Below, one piece after another: positions 40,954 to 57,069 of a DNA stretch of 64,000 bases. The stretch covers positions 1 through 64,000 of the forward strand of contig JAQGMG010000002.1 in the NCBI GenBank assembly GCA_028292485.1. Direction: 5' to 3'. The stretch comes from Rhodocyclales bacterium. Lineage in GTDB: Bacteria; Pseudomonadota; Gammaproteobacteria; Burkholderiales; Rhodocyclaceae. Position 1 is the stretch's first letter. The number at the start of each line of letters is the position of its first letter. The translations under genes and the position numbers were made by a program. The notes under the pieces are model-generated. The model ran no database searches and was not told the DNA's origin. It saw nothing but the letters and a program-made list of their open reading frames with translations.

Positions 40954-41007
40954 GCTAGGAACGGCCAAGGCGGTTTGATTCATCGCAACGGACACAGGAA
41001 ATTTGCC

Positions 41008-43212
41008 GTGGAAAAGCGTACTGACTTGCATATCGGATATGTACTGTTCGATCCACGCTTTGGCGCGTTCATCTGGACCGTTGGGGAAAACTGCCTGCGT
41101 ACCGAGGCGTCCAAGCGTGGCATGCAGCTAACGACGGTGCAGGTGCTGACGGTCGAAGAACAGGCGGCGGAACTGGGCAAGCTCCTCGACAGGGGTGTGG
41201 ATGCCATCATATTCAAGCCGATGGCGCGGACACACCACGACATTTCCGAGTTCTTGCGCAGAGCCCGGGCGGAACACGTTCCCGTTGTCACCATGGACTC
41301 TTCGGTGGACGATGACGGCATCGTATGCACGGTAGGTTCCGACAATGCGCGCGGGCAGGCACTCATCGTCGAGCAGGTGATCGAGAAACTTGGCCAACGT
41401 GGCAAAGTTGCCTATTTCTGCGGCGATCAGCGCGTTCCGACCGGGGCACTGCGAACGCGCAGCTTCCACGAAACCATCAGCCGATACCCCGAAGTCGAGG
41501 TGGTTTACGAGTCTATGCTCGACTGGCTTGCCCCGATCTCACGACGTGAGCAGGGCGTCAGTTTCGCGCGCGAGGCGTTGCAGAAAGCACCTGATCTCGA
41601 TGCCATCATTTCAGCCACCGATGAGGGCGCGCTGGGGGCCATAGAGGTGCTCAAGGAAGCGGGCTTGTCGAGCAGGGTATTCGTCGCCGGCTTCGATGGC
41701 ATCCCCGAAGCCCTGCTGGCTGTCGAGGCGGGCACCATGCTCGCTACCGTGCGGCAATTGCCGCGCGCCATTGCAGCACGCACACTGGACGTCATTGAAG
41801 CACTGTTGGGCGGTGAGTCAGTGCCACAGCAGTTCCTCGTCAACGTGGCCCTGACGACGGCCGACAAGGTTGGCAGTGCGGCACTGGATGCCCTGGAATT
41901 GATCCCCGGCCTGATCGTCAATCTCGCCGCCAATCATCAGGAGCAGCGCAAGCTGCAGCAAACCATCATCACCACGCAGCAGAATATCCTGCAGACGGTT
42001 GCTGCGGTGTCGACAGCGGTCGGCAGTATTCGCGACCCCGAAGACATGATGCGCAAGGTTGTCGATCTGCTGCACGAGCGTTTCGGCCTGCTGTGCGCCA
42101 ATCTCTACACCCTGCCCGCCACCGGCGAGGGTAACGGTCGGCTCGTGTTGCGGGCACATAGCGGGGCTGACACGCCGGCGTCGGCAGACGACACTGCCGG
42201 CGATGGCGTCATGCAAAATGGGTTGGTGGACAAGTCGGAGTTGACGATCCCGCTGATCTCGGGAGAGCACGTCATTGGCGTGCTCGAGTTGCACAGCACG
42301 GACGCAAGGGCGTTTGATGATGACAGTGTGTCGATCATGAACGCCATCGCGCACCAGATCGCGGTGGCGATCGATAACGCCAGCCTCTATCGCGAGACCG
42401 TGTTGCATGCACGGCACGAGGAAGAGAATCGTGAGAGGCTGATGATTGCCGAGAAGATGGCTTCGCTCGGGCGCCTCACGGCAGGGATTGCGCATGAAAT
42501 GAATACGCCACTGGCCGCCGTGCGCGCCGCTGTCTCGGAACTCGAAAGCCTGGTCAACGAGTACCGCGAATCGATTGGCGACGACAGCGTGAACGATCAG
42601 GATCATCGGGAAATCTCGGACGAGATGCTCAAGTCCCTGCATCTGGCGCAGAGTGCGGCGGAACGGGCGGCCGGTTTTGTGCGTGGCGTGAAATCGCAGA
42701 CCCGCGACCTGAGCGCGCAACAGCGTGTCAGCTTCAATGCCGTGACGGTGCTTCAGGAATCCATCCTGCTCTTGAGTCACGCCTTGCGCGAAGGGAATTG
42801 CACTACTGATTTCGAGCACACGCGCGATGCGATGGAAATCGTTGGCTCACCGAGCCGTCTGGCACAGATCATCACCAATCTGGTCACCAATGCGATTGAT
42901 GCGATGGGGGCGCAAGGCGGCGGCAAAATCGAGGTGTCCCTCGTTGAGGAAGCCGGCTTCCTGATCTTGCGCGTCCGCGATCACGGCTGTGGCATGCCGC
43001 CCGAAGTGCAGTCCAAGGTTTTCGACCCGATGTTCACCACCAAGCCCTTCGGCGAGGGCACTGGCCTGGGGTTGACCATCGTTCATGACATCGTCAAAGG
43101 CGATTTCAATGGTTCCATCGACATAGACAGTCGTGTAGATGAAGGCACGACATTTGTCATTCGTCTGGCACGCGGAGAGAAGCCACCCATCCCCGCACCG
43201 GCGGGCAGCTAG
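41008..43212 (+). CDS. soluble histidine kinase with periplasmic-binding-protein domain and GAF
   Basis: 734 aa from GTG 41008, which has an AGGA site 8 nt upstream. The N-terminal 300 residues form a ribose-binding-protein/LacI-like sensor (GYVLFDPRFGAFIWTVGENC, IIFKPMA, VVTMDSSVDDD, VFVAGFDGIPEAL); a GAF-like domain follows (about 335-465), then HisKA with His496 (GIAHEMNTPLAAV) and HATPase (GEGTGLGLTIVHDIV). No signal peptide or TM helix, so the PBP-fold sensor would be cytoplasmic. It faces the REC-GGDEF gene tail to tail, a likely partner. Confidence 0.88.
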   Translation: MEKRTDLHIGYVLFDPRFGAFIWTVGENCLRTEASKRGMQLTTVQVLTVEEQAAELGKLLDRGVDAIIFKPMARTHHDISEFLRRARAEHVPVVTMDSSVDDDGIVCTVGSDNARGQALIVEQVIEKLGQRGKVAYFCGDQRVPTGALRTRSFHETISRYPEVEVVYESMLDWLAPISRREQGVSFAREALQKAPDLDAIISATDEGALGAIEVLKEAGLSSRVFVAGFDGIPEALLAVEAGTMLATVRQLPRAIAARTLDVIEALLGGESVPQQFLVNVALTTADKVGSAALDALELIPGLIVNLAANHQEQRKLQQTIITTQQNILQTVAAVSTAVGSIRDPEDMMRKVVDLLHERFGLLCANLYTLPATGEGNGRLVLRAHSGADTPASADDTAGDGVMQNGLVDKSELTIPLISGEHVIGVLELHSTDARAFDDDSVSIMNAIAHQIAVAIDNASLYRETVLHARHEEENRERLMIAEKMASLGRLTAGIAHEMNTPLAAVRAAVSELESLVNEYRESIGDDSVNDQDHREISDEMLKSLHLAQSAAERAAGFVRGVKSQTRDLSAQQRVSFNAVTVLQESILLLSHALREGNCTTDFEHTRDAMEIVGSPSRLAQIITNLVTNAIDAMGAQGGGKIEVSLVEEAGFLILRVRDHGCGMPPEVQSKVFDPMFTTKPFGEGTGLGLTIVHDIVKGDFNGSIDIDSRVDEGTTFVIRLARGEKPPIPAPAGS

Positions 43213-43248: not shown

Positions 43249-44730
43249 CTATTCGCTTTTCGACAAGGGTAGCCAGGCCACCGGCGCGCCGGACTCGAAA
43301 TGGCAGCCATTCACCTGGTGTTTTGCCCGGTACAGAGCCCGGTCGGCTTCATCGATCAGCGTGCGCGCCATGTTTTCGAAATAGGACAGCGGAATAGGTT
43401 TCGGTGCGAGTGTGATGTCGAAGTCGTGCGGCTGCAGCACGCTGATGCCGATACTGCCCTCGACCGGCAAATCGCCAGCGGGGCTCGACACGGTCTTGCC
43501 GCTCAACGCCTCCAGAATGCGCCTGGCGATGATCTGGCCTCCCTCAGAGCCGGGCTCGCGCAGCAGGATGGCAAACTCATCGCCGCCGAAACGGCCGCAG
43601 ATATCGATATCCCGCAGGCATTGGCGCAGCGCCTTGCCCACGATGACAAGGGCACGGTCGCCGCCGAGATGCCCGGCGGTATCGTTGATTTGTTTGAGCT
43701 TGTCGAGGTCGACCATGAGCACCGATAGCGGACGCTTGGCACGGAATGCGGCGCGCAGTTCGCGCAGGAACCACTGATCGAAGAAGCGACGCACATAGAC
43801 GCCGGTGAGCGGGTCCAGCGTGGCCATCTCGTACAACTGCGAATTGCGGATGGCGACGGCCGCCTGGTTGGCGAAGACTTGCAGCAATTCGATATCGCGC
43901 TGCAGATTGACCGAGCGGTCCAGATAGACGATGCCGATGACCACTTCACCGACGCACAGCGGCACGATGGTCGAATTCTCGATTACGCGAACGTCATGCT
44001 GTTGCAGGGTGTCGCGTACAACATCCAGCTCTTCTGTATCGAGGCAGTCCGCCGCGTGCTTGTAGCCGGCGAAACGGCCGGTGCTGGCATGGATGGCGAG
44101 CTCCATCTCGTCCGCGACCATGACGAGAAAGCCCTCTGCCTGCACTTCACTTGTGCGTTGCACGCTCTTTGGGTCGATGGCCAGGAAAGAATCCGCTGCG
44201 CCGAGCAATCCGGCAATCTGCAGGATGATGCCTTGCAGGAGATCGTCAAGCGGCTGGATCTTGTGCAATGACGGTGTCGCGTCGAGGATGTAGCGCAGGC
44301 CTTGCCGGCTCTTGTGCAATAGCTGGACGGTGTAGGCTGCCTTGAGCCCGACATCGGTCCAGATCAACAACTTTTCGGGCCCCTCGCTCTTGTCGTGATA
44401 GCCCTGGATGTCGAGGCGCCGCAGGAGCTCGCGTGGCGGTTGTTCGCTGGCGTAGCCGGTTTGCAGGATGACCTGGGTGTGATCGTTGAATTTGCGCAGC
44501 TCCAGCACCGTCTCTTCGCCGGTCATGCCGGGCATGAAGAAATCCAGCAGCAGCAGATCGATGTGCTGATCGCGCAGTACCTCCAGCGCCTTGGCGCCAC
44601 TGTCGGCCCACAGGACGGTATGACCTTCGCGTTCGAGCAGGCTGCATGTGGCCTGAGCGTAATCCGGGTCGTCCTCGGCAAGCAGGATGGTCCAGCGAGA
44701 AGCGTTCGCTACTTTTGACTTACGAGCCAT
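43249..44730 (-). CDS. REC-GAF-GGDEF response regulator
   Basis: 493 aa from ATG 44730, with GGAGA upstream. An N-terminal receiver (LLAEDDPDYA; phospho-Asp in LLLLDFFMPGMTG), a GAF-like middle and a GGDEF domain (FGGDEFAIL) with an RxxD inhibition site (RDID), so an intact diguanylate cyclase controlled by phosphorylation. Convergent with the PBP-domain kinase gene, 36 bp between stops. Confidence 0.93.
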   Translation of the reverse strand: MARKSKVANASRWTILLAEDDPDYAQATCSLLEREGHTVLWADSGAKALEVLRDQHIDLLLLDFFMPGMTGEETVLELRKFNDHTQVILQTGYASEQPPRELLRRLDIQGYHDKSEGPEKLLIWTDVGLKAAYTVQLLHKSRQGLRYILDATPSLHKIQPLDDLLQGIILQIAGLLGAADSFLAIDPKSVQRTSEVQAEGFLVMVADEMELAIHASTGRFAGYKHAADCLDTEELDVVRDTLQQHDVRVIENSTIVPLCVGEVVIGIVYLDRSVNLQRDIELLQVFANQAAVAIRNSQLYEMATLDPLTGVYVRRFFDQWFLRELRAAFRAKRPLSVLMVDLDKLKQINDTAGHLGGDRALVIVGKALRQCLRDIDICGRFGGDEFAILLREPGSEGGQIIARRILEALSGKTVSSPAGDLPVEGSIGISVLQPHDFDITLAPKPIPLSYFENMARTLIDEADRALYRAKHQVNGCHFESGAPVAWLPLSKSE

Positions 44731-44921
44731 GCATCTCTCCTGTACGTGACCTCGGGTGAAGTGGCCACGGCCGCGCATCCGGGTTTCGACCCCCGTGATC
44801 ATGTCTGCCGAATACGCATGCTGCCAAAACTAACGGCAATTGGGGCGACGACTTCAATCGTACACGCTTGTGACAATGAAAAAATCAATGTCGCGGTTCA
44901 CCCGACGCATGGCCCGGGTCG

Positions 44922-46457: not shown

Positions 46458-46626
46458 GGCGTTGGCGGTTAAGGCAAAGCGGGGATGGTAGCCGATGCGT
46501 CGCCTGGAGAACACAAGGCTTTCACCGCAGAGGTACAGATTTGGTTTTACGCCGGTTGTCCGCAAATTCTGCGCTGCCGCTTGCGCGGATTTCGCCAGAT
46601 GGCACAATCGCGGCTGCGGTACCAGG

Positions 46627-46673
46627 GCGTGCTCACAGTAGGCGGACGATCCGCCCGCCTACTGTGAGCACGC
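46627..46673. repeat. 47-bp perfect palindrome, family C
   Basis: Perfect 19-bp arms (46627-46645, beginning GCGTGCTCACAGTAGGCGG, and 46655-46673) around a 9-nt core, in the divergent ubiB/DUF805 gap. Unrelated in sequence to the other repeats here. No T-tract. Confidence 0.9.
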
Positions 46674-46708
46674 TCTAAGACCCAGATAATTAGAACAGGG
46701 GAGCATGC

Positions 46709-47083
46709 ATGTCATTGTCTTTCAGGCAAATGTATCTGGCACCGTACGTCTTTCTCTCCGGGCGGCTTCAGCGCTCGCGCTTCAACTGGCTTCTCCTCGT
46801 CTTGATCGTTGTATTCGTCGTTTTGTTCGTCTTCATCGACGCAACATTCGGCCATCCGCAAACGCTTGTTCTCTATCCCTTTCTTGCCTGGGGTGCGCTG
46901 GCCTTGAGCACGCAGCGCCTGCATGACCATGGCAAGTCGATGGCTTGGCTGCTGCTTCTGCTCATTCCGGTATTCGGCCCGCTGTGGTGTTTCATTACGC
47001 TGTGTTGCCGCGCCGGCTCTTCCGGCGAGAACCAGTATGGTGAAGACCTGCTTTCCTGCCATGCCGATTACCTGACGGTGTAA
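46709..47083 (+). CDS. DUF805 membrane protein
   Basis: 124 aa with three hydrophobic segments and the DUF805 signature GRLQRSRFNW...LALSTQRLHDHGKS. Only 3 bp precede the next gene, so it heads the oxidase-methyltransferase unit. Function unknown in the family. Confidence 0.85.
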   Translation: MSLSFRQMYLAPYVFLSGRLQRSRFNWLLLVLIVVFVVLFVFIDATFGHPQTLVLYPFLAWGALALSTQRLHDHGKSMAWLLLLLIPVFGPLWCFITLCCRAGSSGENQYGEDLLSCHADYLTV

Positions 47084-47086
47084 TAG

Positions 47087-49333
47087 ATGACAGCGCAACA
47101 GACCATCGTCAATGACGTAAGCGGCCTCAATCCGATGCCGGTGTGGGTCGTATCCGCGCCGACCAGCATCGAAGAAGTGCAGGAGGCCATGCGCCGCACC
47201 AATGCGCCGATCTCCATCGGCGGCGGCCACTTCAGCATGGGCGGGCAGACCAGTAGTCCCGGCAGCTTGCATCTGGACATGCGCGAGCTGAACAAGGTGC
47301 TGCTGTTCGCGCCGCAGGAAAGGATCATCCGTGTGCAGGCCGGCATCCGCTGGTGCGACATCCAGAAATTCATCGATCCGCACGATCTGTCAGTCAAGAT
47401 CATGCAGACCTATGCCAATTTCACGGTCGGCGGTTCGTTGTCGGTGAATGCGCATGGCCGTTACATGGGCGCCGGGCCGTTGATCCTGTCGGTGCGCTCG
47501 ATTCGCCTGGTGCTGCCCAACAGCGATCTGATCGACGCTTCGCCGACGCGCAACGCCAATCTTTTCTATGCTGCCATTGGCGGCTATGGCGCGATCGGCG
47601 TCATTGTCGAAGCCGAACTGGACCTGGCCGACAACAGCCGCATGGAGCGCATCGAAACCAAGATGCCGGTGCGCAAGTATGCCGAATGGTTTGGCAAGCA
47701 AGTGCGTAATGCGCCGGCAGTAGTGCTTCACAACGCCGATATCTATGCGCCGCACTATTCGCGCGTACGTGCTGTCAGCTGGGTCGAAACCAAGCGTCCG
47801 GTGACAGTGCCGTATCGCCTGCAGCCGCGCCGCGCCATGTATCCGCTGCAACGCTATTTCCTGTGGGCGGTTTCCGAGACACCGCTCGGCAAGTGGCGCC
47901 GCGAGCACATCGTCGACCGTGCCGTGTATTTCCGGCGGCCGGTGCATTGGCGCAACTACGAGGCGGGCTACGACGTCGCCGAGCTGGAGCCCTGGTCGCG
48001 CAAGAAGAGCACCTATGTGCTGCAGGAGTATTTCGTGCCTGCCAAGCGCATCGACGAGTTCATGCCCGGCATGGCACGCGTGCTACGGCGACACGACGTA
48101 AACGTTCTCAACATATCCATTCGCCATGCGGCGGCCGATAGCGGTTCATTGATGGCGTGGGCGCGCGGCGAGACCTTTGCATTCGTGCTGTACTACAAGC
48201 AGCGGACCGGCGAGGACGCGCGCGAACAGGTAGCCGTGTGGACACGCGAGTTGGTGGACATCGTGCTGGGCGTTGGCGGCACCTACTACCTGCCCTACCA
48301 GCCGCATGCAACGCCGGAGCAATTCCATCGTGCTTATCCGCGGGCGCGCGAGTTGTTTGCGCTCAAGCGTGAGCTCGATCCTGGCTACCGCCTGCGCAGC
48401 GTGCTGTGGGACAAGTACTATGCGCCGACTCTGCAGGACGAGCCGACGGCTAGCGCAAGCGAATCCGAGCACATGGGCGAGTTCCATCGCGTCTATCACG
48501 ATGTCGGCCGTCGCGACGACTTCTATCGCTTCCTGCAGAACATCTTTCATCTCTATCCGGAAGAGCGCTTCCATGCGCTCATCAAGAGTGGATGCCAGCG
48601 GCATGACGATGATTCGTCCATCTACCGCTACGTCCAGCAGTTTCTGCCGCAGATCAAGCCTTTCCTCTCCGAGCTGACCTACGCCCTGCCTGCATTGCGT
48701 ACGCAAAAACGCGAGATGGCGCGCCAGACGCTCGAACTGCTTGGCGAGCGCCGCAATATCAGCGGCTACATCGAAATTGGCAGCACCGGTCGTTACGTCA
48801 GTGCGCTGCGCCGCCATGTGCGTTTCCGTGGCGATGTCATCCTGCTCAACGACGTGGCGCCCAGCAACTCGCCGGCCGACATCATGGAGCGCGGCGGCGT
48901 GGCGCAGATCGGCCGCTGGTTGCCGCTCGACCTTTACGCGCCGATCAGTACCGAAGCGGTGCGCGACAACAGCATCGACGTGGTGAGTTGCTACATCGGC
49001 CTGCACCACATCGAGCCCGCCGATCGGCCGGCCTTCCTCGCATCGATCCATCGCGTGCTGCGCCCCGGCGGCCTGTTCATCCTGCGCGACCACGATGTGA
49101 CCACGCCCGAGATGCGCACCTTTGTTTCGCTGGTGCACACGGTCTTCAATCTTGGTCTCGGTGTTCCCTGGGAAACCAACTTTGAAGAGCCGCGCTATTT
49201 CACCTCGGTCGATGAATGGGTGCAGCGTCTCCACACTGCCGGTTTCAACGATACCGGTGCACGCTTGCTGCAGGACAATGATCCGACGCGTAATGTGCTG
49301 ATGTCATTCACCAAGCGTGGCTTGTCGGCATGA
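47087..49333 (+). CDS. FAD-binding oxidase fused to SAM methyltransferase
   Basis: 748 aa. Residues 15-165 form a p-cresol-methylhydroxylase-type FAD domain (PISIGGGHFSMGGQ; His48 could be the covalent flavin ligand; VGGSLSVNAHGRYMGAGP, IGGYGAIGVI), most like the DprE1/aldonolactone oxidase superfamily; a substrate domain follows to about 460. Residues about 525-748 are a class I methyltransferase (YIEIGSTGRY, DVVSCYIGLHHI, LRPGGLFILRDHD). The combination is one I do not recognise. Its stop overlaps the next gene (ATGA). Possible lipid, sugar or polyphenol modification pathway; substrate unknown. Confidence 0.82.
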   Translation: MTAQQTIVNDVSGLNPMPVWVVSAPTSIEEVQEAMRRTNAPISIGGGHFSMGGQTSSPGSLHLDMRELNKVLLFAPQERIIRVQAGIRWCDIQKFIDPHDLSVKIMQTYANFTVGGSLSVNAHGRYMGAGPLILSVRSIRLVLPNSDLIDASPTRNANLFYAAIGGYGAIGVIVEAELDLADNSRMERIETKMPVRKYAEWFGKQVRNAPAVVLHNADIYAPHYSRVRAVSWVETKRPVTVPYRLQPRRAMYPLQRYFLWAVSETPLGKWRREHIVDRAVYFRRPVHWRNYEAGYDVAELEPWSRKKSTYVLQEYFVPAKRIDEFMPGMARVLRRHDVNVLNISIRHAAADSGSLMAWARGETFAFVLYYKQRTGEDAREQVAVWTRELVDIVLGVGGTYYLPYQPHATPEQFHRAYPRARELFALKRELDPGYRLRSVLWDKYYAPTLQDEPTASASESEHMGEFHRVYHDVGRRDDFYRFLQNIFHLYPEERFHALIKSGCQRHDDDSSIYRYVQQFLPQIKPFLSELTYALPALRTQKREMARQTLELLGERRNISGYIEIGSTGRYVSALRRHVRFRGDVILLNDVAPSNSPADIMERGGVAQIGRWLPLDLYAPISTEAVRDNSIDVVSCYIGLHHIEPADRPAFLASIHRVLRPGGLFILRDHDVTTPEMRTFVSLVHTVFNLGLGVPWETNFEEPRYFTSVDEWVQRLHTAGFNDTGARLLQDNDPTRNVLMSFTKRGLSA

Positions 49334-50421
49334 TGATGGCATTGCGCGGCAAGCCGGTCTGGTTTGTGTGGCATGTCCCTGTGTGGCATGTCTTTATGGT
49401 GCTTGTGACAGCGCTCACGCTCACGCTCGCCTGCGGCGCAGCGCAGGCGGACTCCGTTGCACCGCCTGAACAGCGGCGCGGTGCCGAGCAAACCTACCTC
49501 ACCTTTCCCGAGTGGTATCTGGTGCACAGCCCCGCCGAGTACGCGAGCTACCTTGCGGCCGATCGCCGGCCAAGCGATTTTCCGTTCTGGGGCCACATCG
49601 GCCAGTTGTGGAGCAGCTACGGGCACGTGACCCGGGCGACGCGCGACCAGCCTTTCAATATCGGCTATCACGTCATGATCGTGGTGATCGCCTCCAGCAC
49701 CACGGTCGAGTATGCGTTGCGCTCGGTCTATGAAGTCACCATCGGGCGACTTTTCGAGCTGACCCGCATGCACGGGCCGACGAGCGAAGAGCGCTACGCC
49801 GCGAAGACAGCGCAGGACTATGTGGATTTCATCCGCGTCCAGCCCTGGTACGAATTCGACTTCAGCGCACGCCTCAAGGCGGTGTGGGCCGAAACGGGCA
49901 GCAGCGGGCCGGATGGTTTGCGTAAATGGGAGCGCAAATACGCGCTGAGCACGGAATACGGCGTCAAGGCGCTTTATGCCATTCTCATCAAGAAGCTCAC
50001 TAGGGCTGCCTACGACGCGCCGCGCCCGACGACCGCAGTACTGGTCGATCGCTGGGTCGACCGCCTCGACGGCAACTGGCCCGAGATGCAGCGGGTGCGC
50101 AGCTTTCCCAACGGTGGCGAACTCGTCCTGCTGCCGCGTTACGAAGCATTCAAGACCGTGGCCATTGCCATTGCCCGCAGCGGCGCGAATTTCGCCGAGG
50201 TGGCCGGGAATGGGCCCGATGCACGCATTCTTATCAGCGTCATCGTTCCGCGCGAGTGGCGGCCCGATAGCGAGGGCTCGGCAAGCTTGTTCGAGCAACC
50301 GATCCTGACCATGCCGGAAGAGAAACGGGTCGCCCTGACCGTACCTGTTCGCCAGCTCGCACAGACCTTGCGCGAACTCGACGGCATGCAGATTACGGTC
50401 GAGCATGTCTACGATTACTGA
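49330..50421 (+). CDS. secreted protein of unknown function paired with the oxidase-methyltransferase
   Basis: 363 aa with a signal peptide (about 1-41, AQA-DS). The mature part opens with an aromatic-rich block TYLTFPEWYLVHSPAEYASY and contains a possible hydrophobic helix (about 108-124, VMIVVIASSTTVEYAL). No catalytic motif recognised. Start overlaps the upstream stop; three in-frame ATGs are possible (49330, 49333, 49336). Coupling implies a shared pathway with the upstream fusion enzyme. Confidence 0.78.
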   Translation: MMMALRGKPVWFVWHVPVWHVFMVLVTALTLTLACGAAQADSVAPPEQRRGAEQTYLTFPEWYLVHSPAEYASYLAADRRPSDFPFWGHIGQLWSSYGHVTRATRDQPFNIGYHVMIVVIASSTTVEYALRSVYEVTIGRLFELTRMHGPTSEERYAAKTAQDYVDFIRVQPWYEFDFSARLKAVWAETGSSGPDGLRKWERKYALSTEYGVKALYAILIKKLTRAAYDAPRPTTAVLVDRWVDRLDGNWPEMQRVRSFPNGGELVLLPRYEAFKTVAIAIARSGANFAEVAGNGPDARILISVIVPREWRPDSEGSASLFEQPILTMPEEKRVALTVPVRQLAQTLRELDGMQITVEHVYDY

Positions 50422-52435: not shown

Positions 52436-54667
52436 GTGACGTCGCCCGAGATGGGGAAAAAACAGGCGAACACGCAGGGTACGCGCGTGGCTCGCATCGC
52501 ACTGCCGCTGCCGAAACCACGCCTGTTTGACTACCTCGTCGGGGACTGTGCCGAGCTGGCTGTCGGACTGTGCGCGCGCGTGCCTTTCGGACCGGGTGAA
52601 AAGACTGGCGTGATCGTCGCCCTCGACCCGTCGGACGCGCCGCCGCGCGAAAAACTACGCCCCGTTCGCGAATTGCTGGTCGACGTACCGCCGCTGCCTG
52701 ACCGCTGGCTGGCCATGGCCGAGTTTGCCGCGCGCTACTACCAGCATCCCCTGGGCGAGGTCATCGCCACCGCCTTGCCGCCCGGTCTCAAGCGCGCGGT
52801 AAGGCTGCCGCGCGAGGACGACCCGCTGCTCGCGACTACCGCTGAGGGCCGGGCTGCGCTGGTCGCCGCAAAAAAACTGACGCGTGCGCTGGCGGCGGTC
52901 AGCCTGTCGACCAGTGCAGGGCCGATGCGGCGCAGCGCCATGCTCGAACATCTGCACGAAGGCGCTGCCGAAGGCATACGCGGTGCGCGCAGCAAGGGCT
53001 GGCTGGAAGTAGTGGCGGCCAGCAGCGATATCCGTATGCTTGACGCCATGCAGCTCAATGCCGAGCAGGCGGCCGCCGTGGCCGCCGTAAGCGCTGCGCT
53101 GGTAGCGAAACCGGCTGCGCGTTTCGAGAGCTTTCTCCTGCACGGCATTACCGGCAGCGGCAAGACCGAGGTCTACCTGCACCTCATTGCCGAAGCGCTC
53201 GCGCTGGGCAAATCGGCGCTCATGCTGGTGCCGGAAATCGGGCTGACGCCACAACTGCTCGAACGCGTCGCCGGCCGTTTTCCCGGTGCGCGCCTGGTGT
53301 CCTTGCATAGCGGGCTGGCCGACGGCGCGCGTTCGCGCGGCTTCGTGCAGGCGCTGCGTGGCGAAGCCGACATCGTGCTCGGCACGCGCCTGTCCGTGTT
53401 CGCACCACTACCGAACCTCGGCCTCATCGTGGTCGATGAAGAGCACGATGCATCATTCAAACAGCAAGAGGGCTTGCGCTATTCGGCACGCGATCTGGCC
53501 GTGTGGCGGGCACGTAACGAAGGCTTTCCCATCGTGCTTGGCTCGGCCACGCCGTCGCTGGAAACATGGCTGCATGCCGACGCCGGTCGTTATACGCGAT
53601 TGTCATTGACGCTGCGCGCGGTGGCCGAAGCGCCACCCGCGGTGAAGCTGGTCGACACGCGACGCATGAAGCTCGACCAGGGCCTGTCGCCGCATCTGCT
53701 CGACGCCTTGCGCGAGCGCTTTATACGCGGCGAGCAAAGCCTGGTGTTCCTCAATCGTCGCGGCTATGCCCCTGTCGTAGCCTGCCCGAACTGCAATTGG
53801 GTGAGCGCCTGCAAACATTGCTCGGCCAATATGGTGTTCCACCAGGCCGACGCAATCCTGCGCTGCCACCATTGCGGCGCTGAAGAGAAAGTGCCGCGCA
53901 CCTGTCCGGTATGCGGAAGTCATGACGTACATGCTTTCGGGCGCGGCACGCAGCGGCTCGAAGAGCGGCTCGGCGAATACTTTCCTTCGGCGCGCATCCT
54001 TCGCGTGGATCGCGATTCGGTGAAGACGCCAGCGCAGTGGGAGGCAGTGCGCCGACAGATCGACACAGGTGAAGTCGACATCCTCATCGGCACGCAGATG
54101 CTCGCCAAGGGCCACGACTTTCCACGCCTCACGCTGGTCGGCATTGTCGGCGCGGACGCGTCGCTGTATTCATCCGACTACCGCGCACCTGAGCGCTTGT
54201 TCCAGCAACTCATGCAGGTTTCAGGCCGCGCGGGGCGCGCAGAGTTGCCGGGTGAAGTGTTGATCCAGACTGAGTTTGTTGACCATCCGCTCTTTCGTAA
54301 TCTCGCCACGCATGATTTTCCTGGCTTTGCTGCCATGCAGCTCGCCGAACGGCGCCAGGCGGGCTTTCCGCCGTATAGCTATCACGCGGTGTTGCGTGCG
54401 GAGGCGCCTGAGCTGAAGGATGCGATGGAATTTCTCAAGGCCGCGCGATCCTCGGCTGCTGCTCTGGAAAGTGGCGTTCGTTTGTTTGATCCGGTGCCGA
54501 TGCGATTGGTGCGGCGTGCAAGGTTGGAGCGTGCGCAACTGGTGCTGGAAGCGGATTCGCGGCCAGTTCTGCAGGCCTTGATGACGCAATGGATAACGTT
54601 GCTGTATGCCATGCGTATACCGCGCGATCTGCGCTGGCATCTGGATGTGGATCCCGGCGATCTTTAA
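52436..54667 (+). CDS. priA: primosomal protein N' (replication restart helicase PriA)
   Basis: 743 aa; 3'-to-5' helicase that restarts stalled forks by loading the primosome. N-terminal DNA-binding part (ARIALPLPKPRLFDYLVG), Walker A LHGITGSGKTEVYL, DEEH box (VVDEEHDASFK), the eight-Cys zinc region (CPNCNWVSACKHCSANM, CHHCG, CPVCG) and QVSGRAGRAE are present. Start taken at GTG 52436; ATG 52451 is possible. Confidence 0.96.
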   Translation: MTSPEMGKKQANTQGTRVARIALPLPKPRLFDYLVGDCAELAVGLCARVPFGPGEKTGVIVALDPSDAPPREKLRPVRELLVDVPPLPDRWLAMAEFAARYYQHPLGEVIATALPPGLKRAVRLPREDDPLLATTAEGRAALVAAKKLTRALAAVSLSTSAGPMRRSAMLEHLHEGAAEGIRGARSKGWLEVVAASSDIRMLDAMQLNAEQAAAVAAVSAALVAKPAARFESFLLHGITGSGKTEVYLHLIAEALALGKSALMLVPEIGLTPQLLERVAGRFPGARLVSLHSGLADGARSRGFVQALRGEADIVLGTRLSVFAPLPNLGLIVVDEEHDASFKQQEGLRYSARDLAVWRARNEGFPIVLGSATPSLETWLHADAGRYTRLSLTLRAVAEAPPAVKLVDTRRMKLDQGLSPHLLDALRERFIRGEQSLVFLNRRGYAPVVACPNCNWVSACKHCSANMVFHQADAILRCHHCGAEEKVPRTCPVCGSHDVHAFGRGTQRLEERLGEYFPSARILRVDRDSVKTPAQWEAVRRQIDTGEVDILIGTQMLAKGHDFPRLTLVGIVGADASLYSSDYRAPERLFQQLMQVSGRAGRAELPGEVLIQTEFVDHPLFRNLATHDFPGFAAMQLAERRQAGFPPYSYHAVLRAEAPELKDAMEFLKAARSSAAALESGVRLFDPVPMRLVRRARLERAQLVLEADSRPVLQALMTQWITLLYAMRIPRDLRWHLDVDPGDL

Positions 54668-54676
54668 GAGTTTGAT

Positions 54677-54762
54677 GTAGGTTGGATGAGCCAAGTGTTA
54701 TCAGACGCTTGGAAGTTGCATCAACACAAACATCGGATAACGCCTGCGGTCATCCGACCTAT
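54677..54762. repeat. palindromic repeat, family F
   Basis: About 86 bp with inverted ends TAGGTTGGATGA (54678-54689) and TCATCCGACCTA (54750-54761), 11 of 12 positions complementary. Related in its first bases to family A but with GGATG in place of GGGGTG. Lies 10 bp after priA. Confidence 0.75.
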
Positions 54763-54815
54763 CCGCTCTCTCTCACTCGACGTGTGCAAGTCTAGGGTTT
54801 ACATACTCGCTAGCG

Positions 54816-55601
54816 TCACTGCGTCGTTCTTTTTGCTGGCGAAGTAGTTGGTTTCGTCCTACGACTTTCTCGTTTCAATTGCGTAGATTTGTATCTGAAT
54901 GGTCCTCGCACGTCTGTTAGATGCGCTTTTATTTCAGGAGTTTGGGCCGCAGGATCATTATCCATTGCCTTGCGTATATCCGGATTGAATACATTAAATA
55001 TGAGATCTGGAATGACTGTCAGATCGCGAGCCATGTCAAGAAGAGTGTTTGCTTTGAAATAAATAGTACTGCTTTTCTCCTGGAGATTCTGAGTGAGGTG
55101 GTCTGACGTATAAAACCAGTTTTCCTTGTTCCTCATGTCAGGAGTTGCGCCGTTGTGTGCGAGCCTATCGCGTATTGATTGGATGTCACCTAAGTGGGCA
55201 AAGATTCGGTCGAGTTCGGCGGTTACCGCGTCGTCAGCATTTGTGACGCTAAGTAGTCTATTGAAAGAGTCTTTCATTGGTTTTAATCGCATTGATCCAA
55301 GCACCGCCCGTACAGCCGCTCTTCGCTGGAGGGATAAGGAGGCCTCCCGCTGAATCTTGGTGCGCGCTAAGGGATCTTGAAGAAATTTCACTCGCTCTTC
55401 CCCAGAAGGAGGCTGCCGATAATATTTTGAAGGGAAGACGGCTTCTTCTAACAAATTGGACAGCACGACATGCAAATCATTTTCTACTCGCGCATATGCA
55501 TGAAAGAATTTACCAAGGGCCATAAAATATTCATTCCATAGCGCATCAGGGATGTAAGTTCTGAAGTCTCTGTCTTTATCTGGGTCTGTTTTCACGGCCA
55601 T
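54816..55601 (-). CDS. AT-richer hypothetical protein with HEPN-like RX4H motif
   Basis: 261 aa from ATG 55601 (a longer TTG start at 55631 is possible). Mostly alpha-helical; the segment IQSIRDRLAHNGATP contains R-x4-H, the catalytic motif of HEPN ribonucleases. The C-terminus is basic. Base and codon use are clearly more AT-rich than neighbours, it has no family match I recognise, and palindromic repeats bound it on both sides (54677-54762 and 55644-55753), as for inserted cargo. The HEPN call is tentative. Confidence 0.6.
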   Translation of the reverse strand: MAVKTDPDKDRDFRTYIPDALWNEYFMALGKFFHAYARVENDLHVVLSNLLEEAVFPSKYYRQPPSGEERVKFLQDPLARTKIQREASLSLQRRAAVRAVLGSMRLKPMKDSFNRLLSVTNADDAVTAELDRIFAHLGDIQSIRDRLAHNGATPDMRNKENWFYTSDHLTQNLQEKSSTIYFKANTLLDMARDLTVIPDLIFNVFNPDIRKAMDNDPAAQTPEIKAHLTDVRGPFRYKSTQLKRESRRTKPTTSPAKRTTQ

Positions 55602-55643
55602 AGGATTGTGTGTAAGATTTTGATTGCACAATGGGCCAGCCCT

Positions 55644-55753
55644 GTAGGGTGCGCAACATTTTTTTGTTGCGCACGCCGCCCAGCCTCTCGATCACCACGG
55701 TTGATATTTGAATCCTTGAACGGTGCGCAACAAGAAGACGTTGCACACCCTAC
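55644..55753. repeat. palindromic repeat, family E
   Basis: 110 bp with ends GTAGGGTGCGCAAC (55644-55657) and GTTGCACACCCTAC (55740-55753), 13 of 14 complementary, and two internal hairpins, one being GTGCGCAAC/GTTGCGCAC around a T-rich loop. The right end contains the TAG stop codon of guaD. Confidence 0.88.
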
Positions 55754-57069
55754 GCCGTTACCTTGTCGCCAAGAATATGCGTAGCACTCACGCAACGCTC
55801 ATCTCCCAGCGTAATTAACGCAAACAACTTCTCCTCAATGCTCTTCGCATGATCAACGCGCCATTCAAGTTCCGGCGTGGCCTTGAAATCGAATACAGCG
55901 AAGTCCGCTTCCTTGCCGGCCTTGAAATTGCCAATGAAGTCATCCAGCCCAAGCGCCTGTGCGCCGCCCAGCGTTGCGAGGTACCAGGCACGCCATGCCG
56001 ACAAGGGCTTGTGCTGGGCCTGCCCGACTGTGTATGCCGCCGCCATGGTACGCAGCATCGACAGGCTGGTGCCGCCACCCACGTCGGTTGCCAGGCCGAC
56101 CGGCACGCCGACCGCATGCGCAGCGTCGTAGTGGAAGAAGCCGCTGCCCAGGAACAGGTTGGAGCTGGGACAAAAGGCGATTGCCGTGCCGGTCTCGGCG
56201 AGTCTTGTCCGCTCACCCGCATCGAGGTGAATGCCATGACCATAGATGGCGCCGCGTCCGAGCAGCTTGTAGTGGTCGTAGACGTCGACGTAGTTGCTGT
56301 GGCCGGGGAAGAGTTCGCCGACCCATTCGATTTCGCGGCGATTCTCCGACAGATGCGATTGCAGATGCATGTCGGGGTAGCCGTTGAACAGTTCGCCGGC
56401 CACGTGTAGTTGCTCCGGCGTCGAAGTCGGTGCGAAGCGCGGCGTGACGCTGTAGCGCAAGCGGCCTTTGCCGTGCCAGCGTTCGATCAGTTTGCGGCTG
56501 TCGTTCAGCGCGCTCTCCGGTGTGTCGCGGAGGTTCTCGGGGCAATGGCGATCCATCATTACCTTGCCGCACAGCATGCGCAGGTTGCGCGATTGTGCGG
56601 CTTCGAAGAATGCGTCGACCGAATGCGGATGGACTGTCGCGAAGACAGATGCCGTTGTCGTGCCATGAGCGAGCAACCGGTCGAGAAAGAAGGCAGAGGC
56701 TTTTTCCGCCAGGCTGCGATTCGAGAAGGCCGCCTCGGCAGGAAAGGTGTAGTGCTCGAGCCAGTCGAGCAGTTGCCGACCGAAAGAGCCCATGACCTGA
56801 ACCTGCGGGTAGTGCACATGCGTGTCGACGAGGCCGGGCACGATCAGCTTGCCGCTGTAATCGAAGGTGCGGGCGGTCTGCTTGGTGAGTGTCGGCAACG
56901 CGGTGATGATGTCGCGCCATGGGCCAGCGCGCACGACCTTGCCGTGCTCGATGAGCAATGCGCCATCTTCGAAATACTGCCAGGCACTGGCGTCATCCCC
57001 TTCGCCCGGATCGGCCAGGAAGTGCAGGATGCTGCCGCGTACCAGCGTTGCAAATGTCTGTGGATTCAT
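55750..57069 (-). CDS. guaD: guanine deaminase
   Basis: 439 aa from ATG 57069, preceded by GGGGGGAA. Converts guanine to xanthine. Metal site DTHVHYPQ, LDWLEHYTFPAE, the QSHLSENRREIEW block and DVGGGTS are characteristic of GuaD amidohydrolases. Its TAG stop lies in the end of repeat E. Last gene of the purine run. Confidence 0.93.
   Translation of the reverse strand: MNPQTFATLVRGSILHFLADPGEGDDASAWQYFEDGALLIEHGKVVRAGPWRDIITALPTLTKQTARTFDYSGKLIVPGLVDTHVHYPQVQVMGSFGRQLLDWLEHYTFPAEAAFSNRSLAEKASAFFLDRLLAHGTTTASVFATVHPHSVDAFFEAAQSRNLRMLCGKVMMDRHCPENLRDTPESALNDSRKLIERWHGKGRLRYSVTPRFAPTSTPEQLHVAGELFNGYPDMHLQSHLSENRREIEWVGELFPGHSNYVDVYDHYKLLGRGAIYGHGIHLDAGERTRLAETGTAIAFCPSSNLFLGSGFFHYDAAHAVGVPVGLATDVGGGTSLSMLRTMAAAYTVGQAQHKPLSAWRAWYLATLGGAQALGLDDFIGNFKAGKEADFAVFDFKATPELEWRVDHAKSIEEKLFALITLGDERCVSATHILGDKVTA

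Follow-up and report, generated by a model that had tools for sequence, protein, structure and literature searches.

The window analysed here is a 64,000-nucleotide stretch of a Rhodocyclales bacterium genome (assembly GCA_028292485.1, contig JAQGMG010000002.1, positions 1 to 64,000), which carries on its forward strand a cassette of three tightly packed genes encoding a small membrane protein, a fused flavin adenine dinucleotide (FAD) oxidase-methyltransferase, and an exported or anchored partner. The first gene (46709-47083) encodes a small polytopic membrane protein of 124 amino acids that matches Pfam DUF805 (PF05656; E 4.6e-20; 72.6 bits against a gathering score of 25.7, with Pfam matches reported at E ≤ 1), and one distant DUF805 copy, 40% identical, lies elsewhere in the genome. 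Its stop codon is separated by 3 bp from the ATG of the second gene (47087-49333), whose 748-residue product lacks an N-terminal signal and joins FAD_binding_4 (PF01565; residues 22-151; E 1.7e-19; 70.3 vs 26.4 bits) and Methyltransf_11 (PF08241; residues 624-666; E 1.3e-8; 35.8 vs 21.2 bits) in one polypeptide. The stop codon of the fusion overlaps by 4 bp (ATGA) with the ATG of the third gene (49330-50421), which is single-copy in this genome and encodes a partner of 363 residues with a hydrophobic N-terminus, from a family without a name. At 0.61, the GC content here equals that of the surrounding sequence. A first-pass annotation made from the sequence alone had described this three-gene layout, with its 3-bp gap and translational coupling, and it is confirmed by the open reading frames (ORFs), the Pfam matches and the ATGA overlap, together with a signal peptide read by eye.

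A scan of contigs with the exported protein recovered eight further loci, all of which hold DUF805, the fusion and the exported gene in the same order; this disfavours chance adjacency and disposes of the objection, raised with the first-pass annotation, that the three genes might not co-occur elsewhere. These loci belong to a Rhodocyclales metagenome-assembled genome (MAG), Andreprevotia, two Rhodanobacter, two alphaproteobacterial MAGs, an unplaced proteobacterial MAG and a Planctomycetota MAG. In them the fusion and the exported gene either overlap or are separated by no more than about a dozen bases, with the start codons of relatives assigned by script. The Rhodocyclales MAG also shares the window's downstream flank, with uroporphyrinogen-decarboxylase-like and PriA-like proteins recognized by eye, and the other loci have different flanks.

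We then evaluated co-occurrence in genome samples of increasing breadth. The exported family was detected in 6 of 200 genomes of the order (one match being a weak fragment and one lying without a close oxidase), in 3 of 369 genomes of a class sample, and in 21 of 398 genomes of a phylum sample, where a few matches were fragmentary or weak. The oxidase (E ≤ 1e-25) occurred in 22 of the 398 phylum-sample genomes, 18 of which also encode the exported family (Fisher p 1.4e-24, over genomes that are not fully independent, several sharing a genus), and this co-occurrence supports the conserved unit described in the first-pass annotation. Within the order sample, the oxidase was present in 7 genomes and co-occurred with the 6 instances of the exported family in 4 (p 8e-6), and each of the four genomes with the fusion had the exported gene (4/4). 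Most of the 13 fused loci came from searches with the exported protein and so carry a selection bias; the unbiased test is provided by two surveys seeded with the fusion, which found fused genomes in 4/200 and 2/398 (the phylum survey scoring at most two candidates per genome). These comprise five distinct genomes including the window's own (G000, G016, G023, G099 and G802), and the exported gene is adjacent in 5/5, truncated in G802 where the contig ends. Exported protein and oxidase are linked as a conserved unit.

Among the 40 oxidases compared (13 fused and 27 unfused) there is a second form of this unit, in which the oxidase is unfused and has as companions the exported protein, a membrane protein of DUF4383 type and, in many cases, one more small protein. 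This form was found at 18 loci, two of them on Ruegeria megaplasmids and the other 16 in genomes from further classes of the phylum; at 10/18 the genes form one run, and in 8/18 the oxidase lies roughly 0.5-2.2 kb away on the opposite strand. The membrane proteins are mutually exclusive: 10 of the 13 fused loci encode DUF805 immediately before the fusion, none of the 18 unfused loci with a partner has it, and the DUF4383-type protein is found in 18/18 of the latter and 0/13 of the former, as counted with profiles built from these same loci, most of which had earlier been found by tblastn. The Ruegeria DUF4383 copy (PF14325) passes its gathering score (28.1 vs 27 bits), and the other 17 proteins are named DUF4383-type by their similarity to it; homology between DUF805 and the DUF4383-type proteins was rejected on a negative profile comparison. 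A tree of the exported family separates the partners of fused oxidases from those of unfused oxidases (support 98/97); L042 and L004, which duplicate L008 and L010, were left out of the trees, and L013 and L014 are near copies. The remaining nine oxidases form a third group with neither methyltransferase nor exported gene beside them, and a search for conserved neighbours at these nine loci clustered only the oxidase itself in at least three.

Several further observations concern the make-up of these loci. The window genome holds on another contig an unfused, twin-arginine-like oxidase, 47% identical, without the partner genes beside it (G000:C53:13333-14646; L069, L091). At L012:2994-5585, in the Planctomycetota MAG, DUF805, oxidase and methyltransferase lie in one open frame, on a single MAG contig where a sequencing fault is possible. 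A single origin of all fusions was rejected when the 13 fused oxidases were held together (approximately unbiased test, p 0.00025), but L046 is a very long branch and we therefore do not rely on this result. Large hypothetical proteins near matches on two Legionella plasmids were considered as further fusions and turned out to be related neither to the fusion nor to one another. A membrane-anchored alpha/beta hydrolase subfamily occurs near the exported gene in six loci (L053:10830-11813, L056:11012-11995, L100:10622-11602, L008:4219-5229, L044:10838-12022 and L055:15318-16358), with copies about 38-46% identical and closer among L053, L056 and L100; the L044 copy sits at a locus where no oxidase was found.

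The fused and unfused oxidases also differ in N-terminal targeting, which we judged by eye and hydropathy. All 27 unfused oxidases start with a twin-arginine-like (RR-type), Sec-like or hydrophobic stretch, whereas in 11 of the 13 fusions no more than 21 residues precede the flavin domain and there is no export or anchor stretch; the window fusion has only 8 residues ahead of the conserved ND motif. The two exceptions are L012, with its single open frame including DUF805, and L046. An enzyme dependent on S-adenosylmethionine (SAM) is expected in the cytoplasm, so the presence of the methyltransferase goes together with the absence of export. Given the opposite targeting of the fused and unfused oxidases, the flavoenzyme seems to cooperate with its partner on whichever membrane face it is located, as a membrane-held substrate would allow.

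The flavin domain (approximately residues 1-446; 47087-48424) was classified as DprE1/aldonolactone-oxidase-like from its PDB profile match and the 40-oxidase tree. Its nearest solved structure is DprE1 (E 2.8e-25, in two segments at profile positions 28-189 and 389-444), which is also its best NCBIfam match, but the full-length score of 85.2 bits is far below the DprE1 family cut-off (NF053785; 500 bits), and the sugar-lactone oxidase cut-offs are not reached either (TIGR01678, 63.4 vs 396.8 bits; TIGR01679, 61.3 vs 292.25 bits). The lysine in the TAKDSR segment of DprE1, which we take to be the active-site lysine, aligns with Tyr404, a tyrosine in 40/40 relatives. Trp89, Gln107, His123, Glu314 and Arg346 are equally invariant, and Lys427 is conserved in 39/40. 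Covalent FAD attachment at His48, as proposed in the first-pass annotation, fails as a family trait: the column holds His in 5/13 fused and 0/27 unfused oxidases, with Arg in 34 and Gly in 1 of the 40, and such attachment may apply to the window protein itself. The 18 unfused oxidases with an exported partner have a His in the column that follows.

The second domain of the fusion (48482-49330, with an N-terminal extension of about 90 residues) is assigned to the class I SAM methyltransferases from its gathering score and glycine-rich SAM loop, with matches to Methyltransf_11, Methyltransf_25 and Methyltransf_23. The EIG..GR loop and GLHH motif are invariant in 12/12 aligned domains over deep divergence. 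Solved structures matching this domain are generic only (YcgJ, METTL6 and others; best E 3.4e-4); the cyclopropane-fatty-acid synthase family is not among the Pfam matches of the fusion at E ≤ 1, and one weak PDB match carries a cyclopropane-synthase name (3ccf_A, E 0.0084). A methyltransferase profile (E ≤ 1e-10) recovered the same 3/369 genomes as the exported family and none with the methyltransferase apart from the fusion. As sequences from the window and from G317 and G518 (both obtained through the exported protein) are among the rows of this profile, their recovery is by construction, and the informative part is solely that no other genome was recovered. A search for free-standing members in 28 genomes, three of them fused, gave weak matches only (best 7.1e-5), in 3 of the 25 genomes without the fusion. 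A defence system was considered and rejected, PADLOC giving a single weak match, to a methyltransferase (E 0.0054). No PDB or NCBIfam protein matched both domains of the fusion, and the unit has no description in the open-licence literature searched on DUF805, DUF4383, proteobacterial DprE1 homologues and lactone oxidase-methyltransferases; a characterised homologue, which would have counted against the novelty claimed for the fusion, was thus not encountered in these sources.

The partner protein has a hydrophobic stretch at residues 16-34 followed by AQA, which on reading by eye fits a Sec signal peptide. It has no family in Pfam, NCBIfam, PHROGs or PADLOC, and its L045 relative matches Lit below the cut-off (17 vs 24 bits). 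Against the PDB, the best single-sequence match had E 0.13, and a profile search returned none at E ≤ 10. A single-sequence structure model was discarded for low confidence (predicted local distance difference test, pLDDT, 39). The structure prediction that had been recommended for this protein did succeed from an alignment of nine sequences, giving a model (pLDDT 73, predicted template modelling score 0.72) in which a helical domain some 185 residues long is joined by an alpha/beta domain at the C-terminus, but it yielded no clear fold match: the best Foldseek hit had E 0.12, with nothing significant. VIA-align placed the C-terminal 66 residues on domains taken as ferredoxin-like (Z 8.1, root-mean-square deviation 1.9), a fold match that is not clear, and the helical part on a PhoU-like protein with Z 9.7, within the stated background for helical models. 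The family alignment contains many conserved charged and aromatic residues, which would suit binding or catalysis.

Gene linkage, co-occurrence, domain make-up, the exclusive swap of membrane proteins and the difference in N-terminal targeting (by eye and hydropathy) are direct observations. We propose, with a probability of roughly 0.45, that the cassette encodes a self-contained, membrane-associated redox and methylation module acting on a lipid or lipid-linked substrate; the membrane-bound nature of this substrate, the order and direction of both reactions, and the roles of the membrane and exported proteins are parts of the model that we infer. The core would consist of a DprE1/aldonolactone-oxidase-type flavoenzyme, an exported or anchored partner, and a small polytopic membrane protein. 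In the lineage of the window, the flavoenzyme, fused to a SAM-dependent methyltransferase, would stay on the cytoplasmic side, where SAM is, and the two domains may carry out methyl transfer and a redox step on one membrane-held substrate, such as a lipid acyl chain, an isoprenoid or a lipid-linked group. DUF805 could anchor the enzyme at the membrane or pass the substrate through it, and the exported partner would act on the opposite face. In the second form, which lacks the methyltransferase, the flavoenzyme itself would be exported or anchored, with the DUF4383-type protein taking the place of DUF805.

The best functional precedent is BfaA/BfaB. According to the consulted excerpts of two reports on 10-methyl branched fatty acids (PMC5660069, PMC7791843), the methyltransferase adds a methylene group to a membrane acyl chain, which the FAD oxidoreductase then reduces; the two are encoded together, as in our cassette, and are thought to act at the membrane. 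An engineered BfaA-B fusion described in these excerpts raises conversion and has the same domain order as the cassette fusion, whereas the native bfa genes are separate and those of the cassette naturally fused, and the excerpts describe no DUF805 or exported partner. By analogy, we propose a comparable two-step modification of a membrane-held substrate. The furan fatty acid pathway UfaM/UfaD/UfaO is alike in that membrane acyl chains are methylated and oxidised, but in the excerpt of its description UfaD is related to phytoene dehydrogenases and desaturases and UfaO is DUF1365 (PMC7380195), and UfaD was rejected as a counterpart because it belongs to another flavoprotein family; Pfam finds neither of these two families in any of the cassette proteins.

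A number of observations weigh against the proposed lipid-modifying module. BfaB belongs to the Cfa (cyclopropane-synthase) family and the cassette methyltransferase does not, so the cassette is not a bfa system. Unfused oxidases without the exported gene occur in seven genomes (3/200 in the order and 4/398 in the phylum), and the exported family lacks a close oxidase at two loci, L061/G608 and L044/G144; a profile search of five genomes with an exported gene or fragment and no close oxidase found distant FAD proteins in two and none in three. DUF805 is missing from the fused loci L045, L046 and L099, and L046 breaks the topology rule, its fusion having an N-terminal hydrophobic stretch and its partner lacking an N-terminal signal. 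Lastly, DUF805 hydropathy gives two clear segments and a third by eye, which would allow the C-terminus on either side.

A more specific version of the lipid-modifying module, which we regard as doubtful, is an undescribed trans-membrane lipid modification in which an inner-face polypeptide, held by DUF805, would oxidise or reduce and methylate a lipid and hand it to an outer-face exported enzyme of a new family, with relatives placing the flavoenzyme outside and lacking the methyltransferase; the product may be a new class of envelope lipid. It is rather unlikely that the cassette instead performs a step like that of DprE1 (decaprenylphosphoryl-ribose oxidase), with the flavoenzyme oxidising the sugar of a polyprenyl-phosphate sugar, the small membrane protein serving as flippase, and the methyltransferase decorating the sugar. 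Both PDB and NCBIfam give DprE1 as the best match, C-terminal segment included, but the score of 85 bits against 500 and the replacement of the TAKDSR lysine by invariant Tyr404 speak against this, and no DprE2-like short-chain dehydrogenase was noticed among neighbouring translations, which were read by eye and not searched against families. The cassette also differs from DprE1 in its fused methyltransferase and its partners.

Equally improbable is an operon for a sugar or alditol lactone oxidase with an incidental methyltransferase fusion. The aldonolactone oxidases (ALO, L-galactonolactone dehydrogenase and xylitol oxidase) share FAD_binding_4 and PDB matches with the flavin domain, and the L046 fusion has an ALO C-terminal domain just below the cut-off (E 1.1e-4; 22.5 vs 23.1 bits). 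The TIGR01678 match of 63 bits is nevertheless far under the family cut-off of 396.8, no aldonolactone oxidase was met here with the fusion or partners of the cassette, and the methyltransferase is kept with invariant motifs across deep divergence and did not turn up outside the fusion (E ≤ 1e-10, 369 genomes). Slightly less probable still is the biosynthesis of a small secreted secondary metabolite. The first-pass annotation had offered an envelope or a secondary-metabolite pathway, of which the envelope is the better half. A patchy distribution of the exported family (6/200, 3/369 and 21/398 genomes) would suit such a metabolite, but few neighbours recur outside the core, namely an ABC ATPase several kb away in four loci, two of them from one genome, and dehydrogenase-type genes in six second-form loci, and in the same reading by eye no synthase or ligase set was noticed. 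That the genes are neighbours without a functional link is very improbable and already contradicted by the co-occurrence counts, since the oxidases found alone and the two exported genes without a close oxidase stand against a Fisher p of 1.4e-24 in 398 incompletely independent genomes and the same order and coupling in distant phyla.

Other features lie in and around the cassette. Upstream of DUF805, at 46624-46676, is a 25-nt inverted repeat with a 3-nt loop, and the RNA fold of 46610-46710 has an energy of -55.8 kcal/mol (z -7.4). Apart from 1-2 differences, the arms of the repeat agree with the termini of approximately 260-bp elements elsewhere in the genome (C54, C16); these look like miniature inverted-repeat elements, and the repeat in the window may be a shortened copy. 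Farther upstream, a gene with sugar-binding-protein-like, GAF-like and histidine-kinase domains (40975-43212) faces a response-regulator/GGDEF-like gene on the reverse strand (43249-44802), both read by eye. Downstream, an ORF at 54816-55631 lies between PriA-like and amidohydrolase-like genes in a stretch of low GC (0.526 for 54001-56000 vs about 0.61), and the ORF list of the close relative L007 has no counterpart at the same place.

Pairs of an FAD oxidoreductase and a methyltransferase are known makers of unusual membrane lipids. In this cassette the pair is a natural fusion, linked across phyla to an unannotated protein family and to either of two mutually unrelated orphan membrane proteins, DUF805 or the DUF4383-type protein, and solving it would assign a function to several orphan families together.

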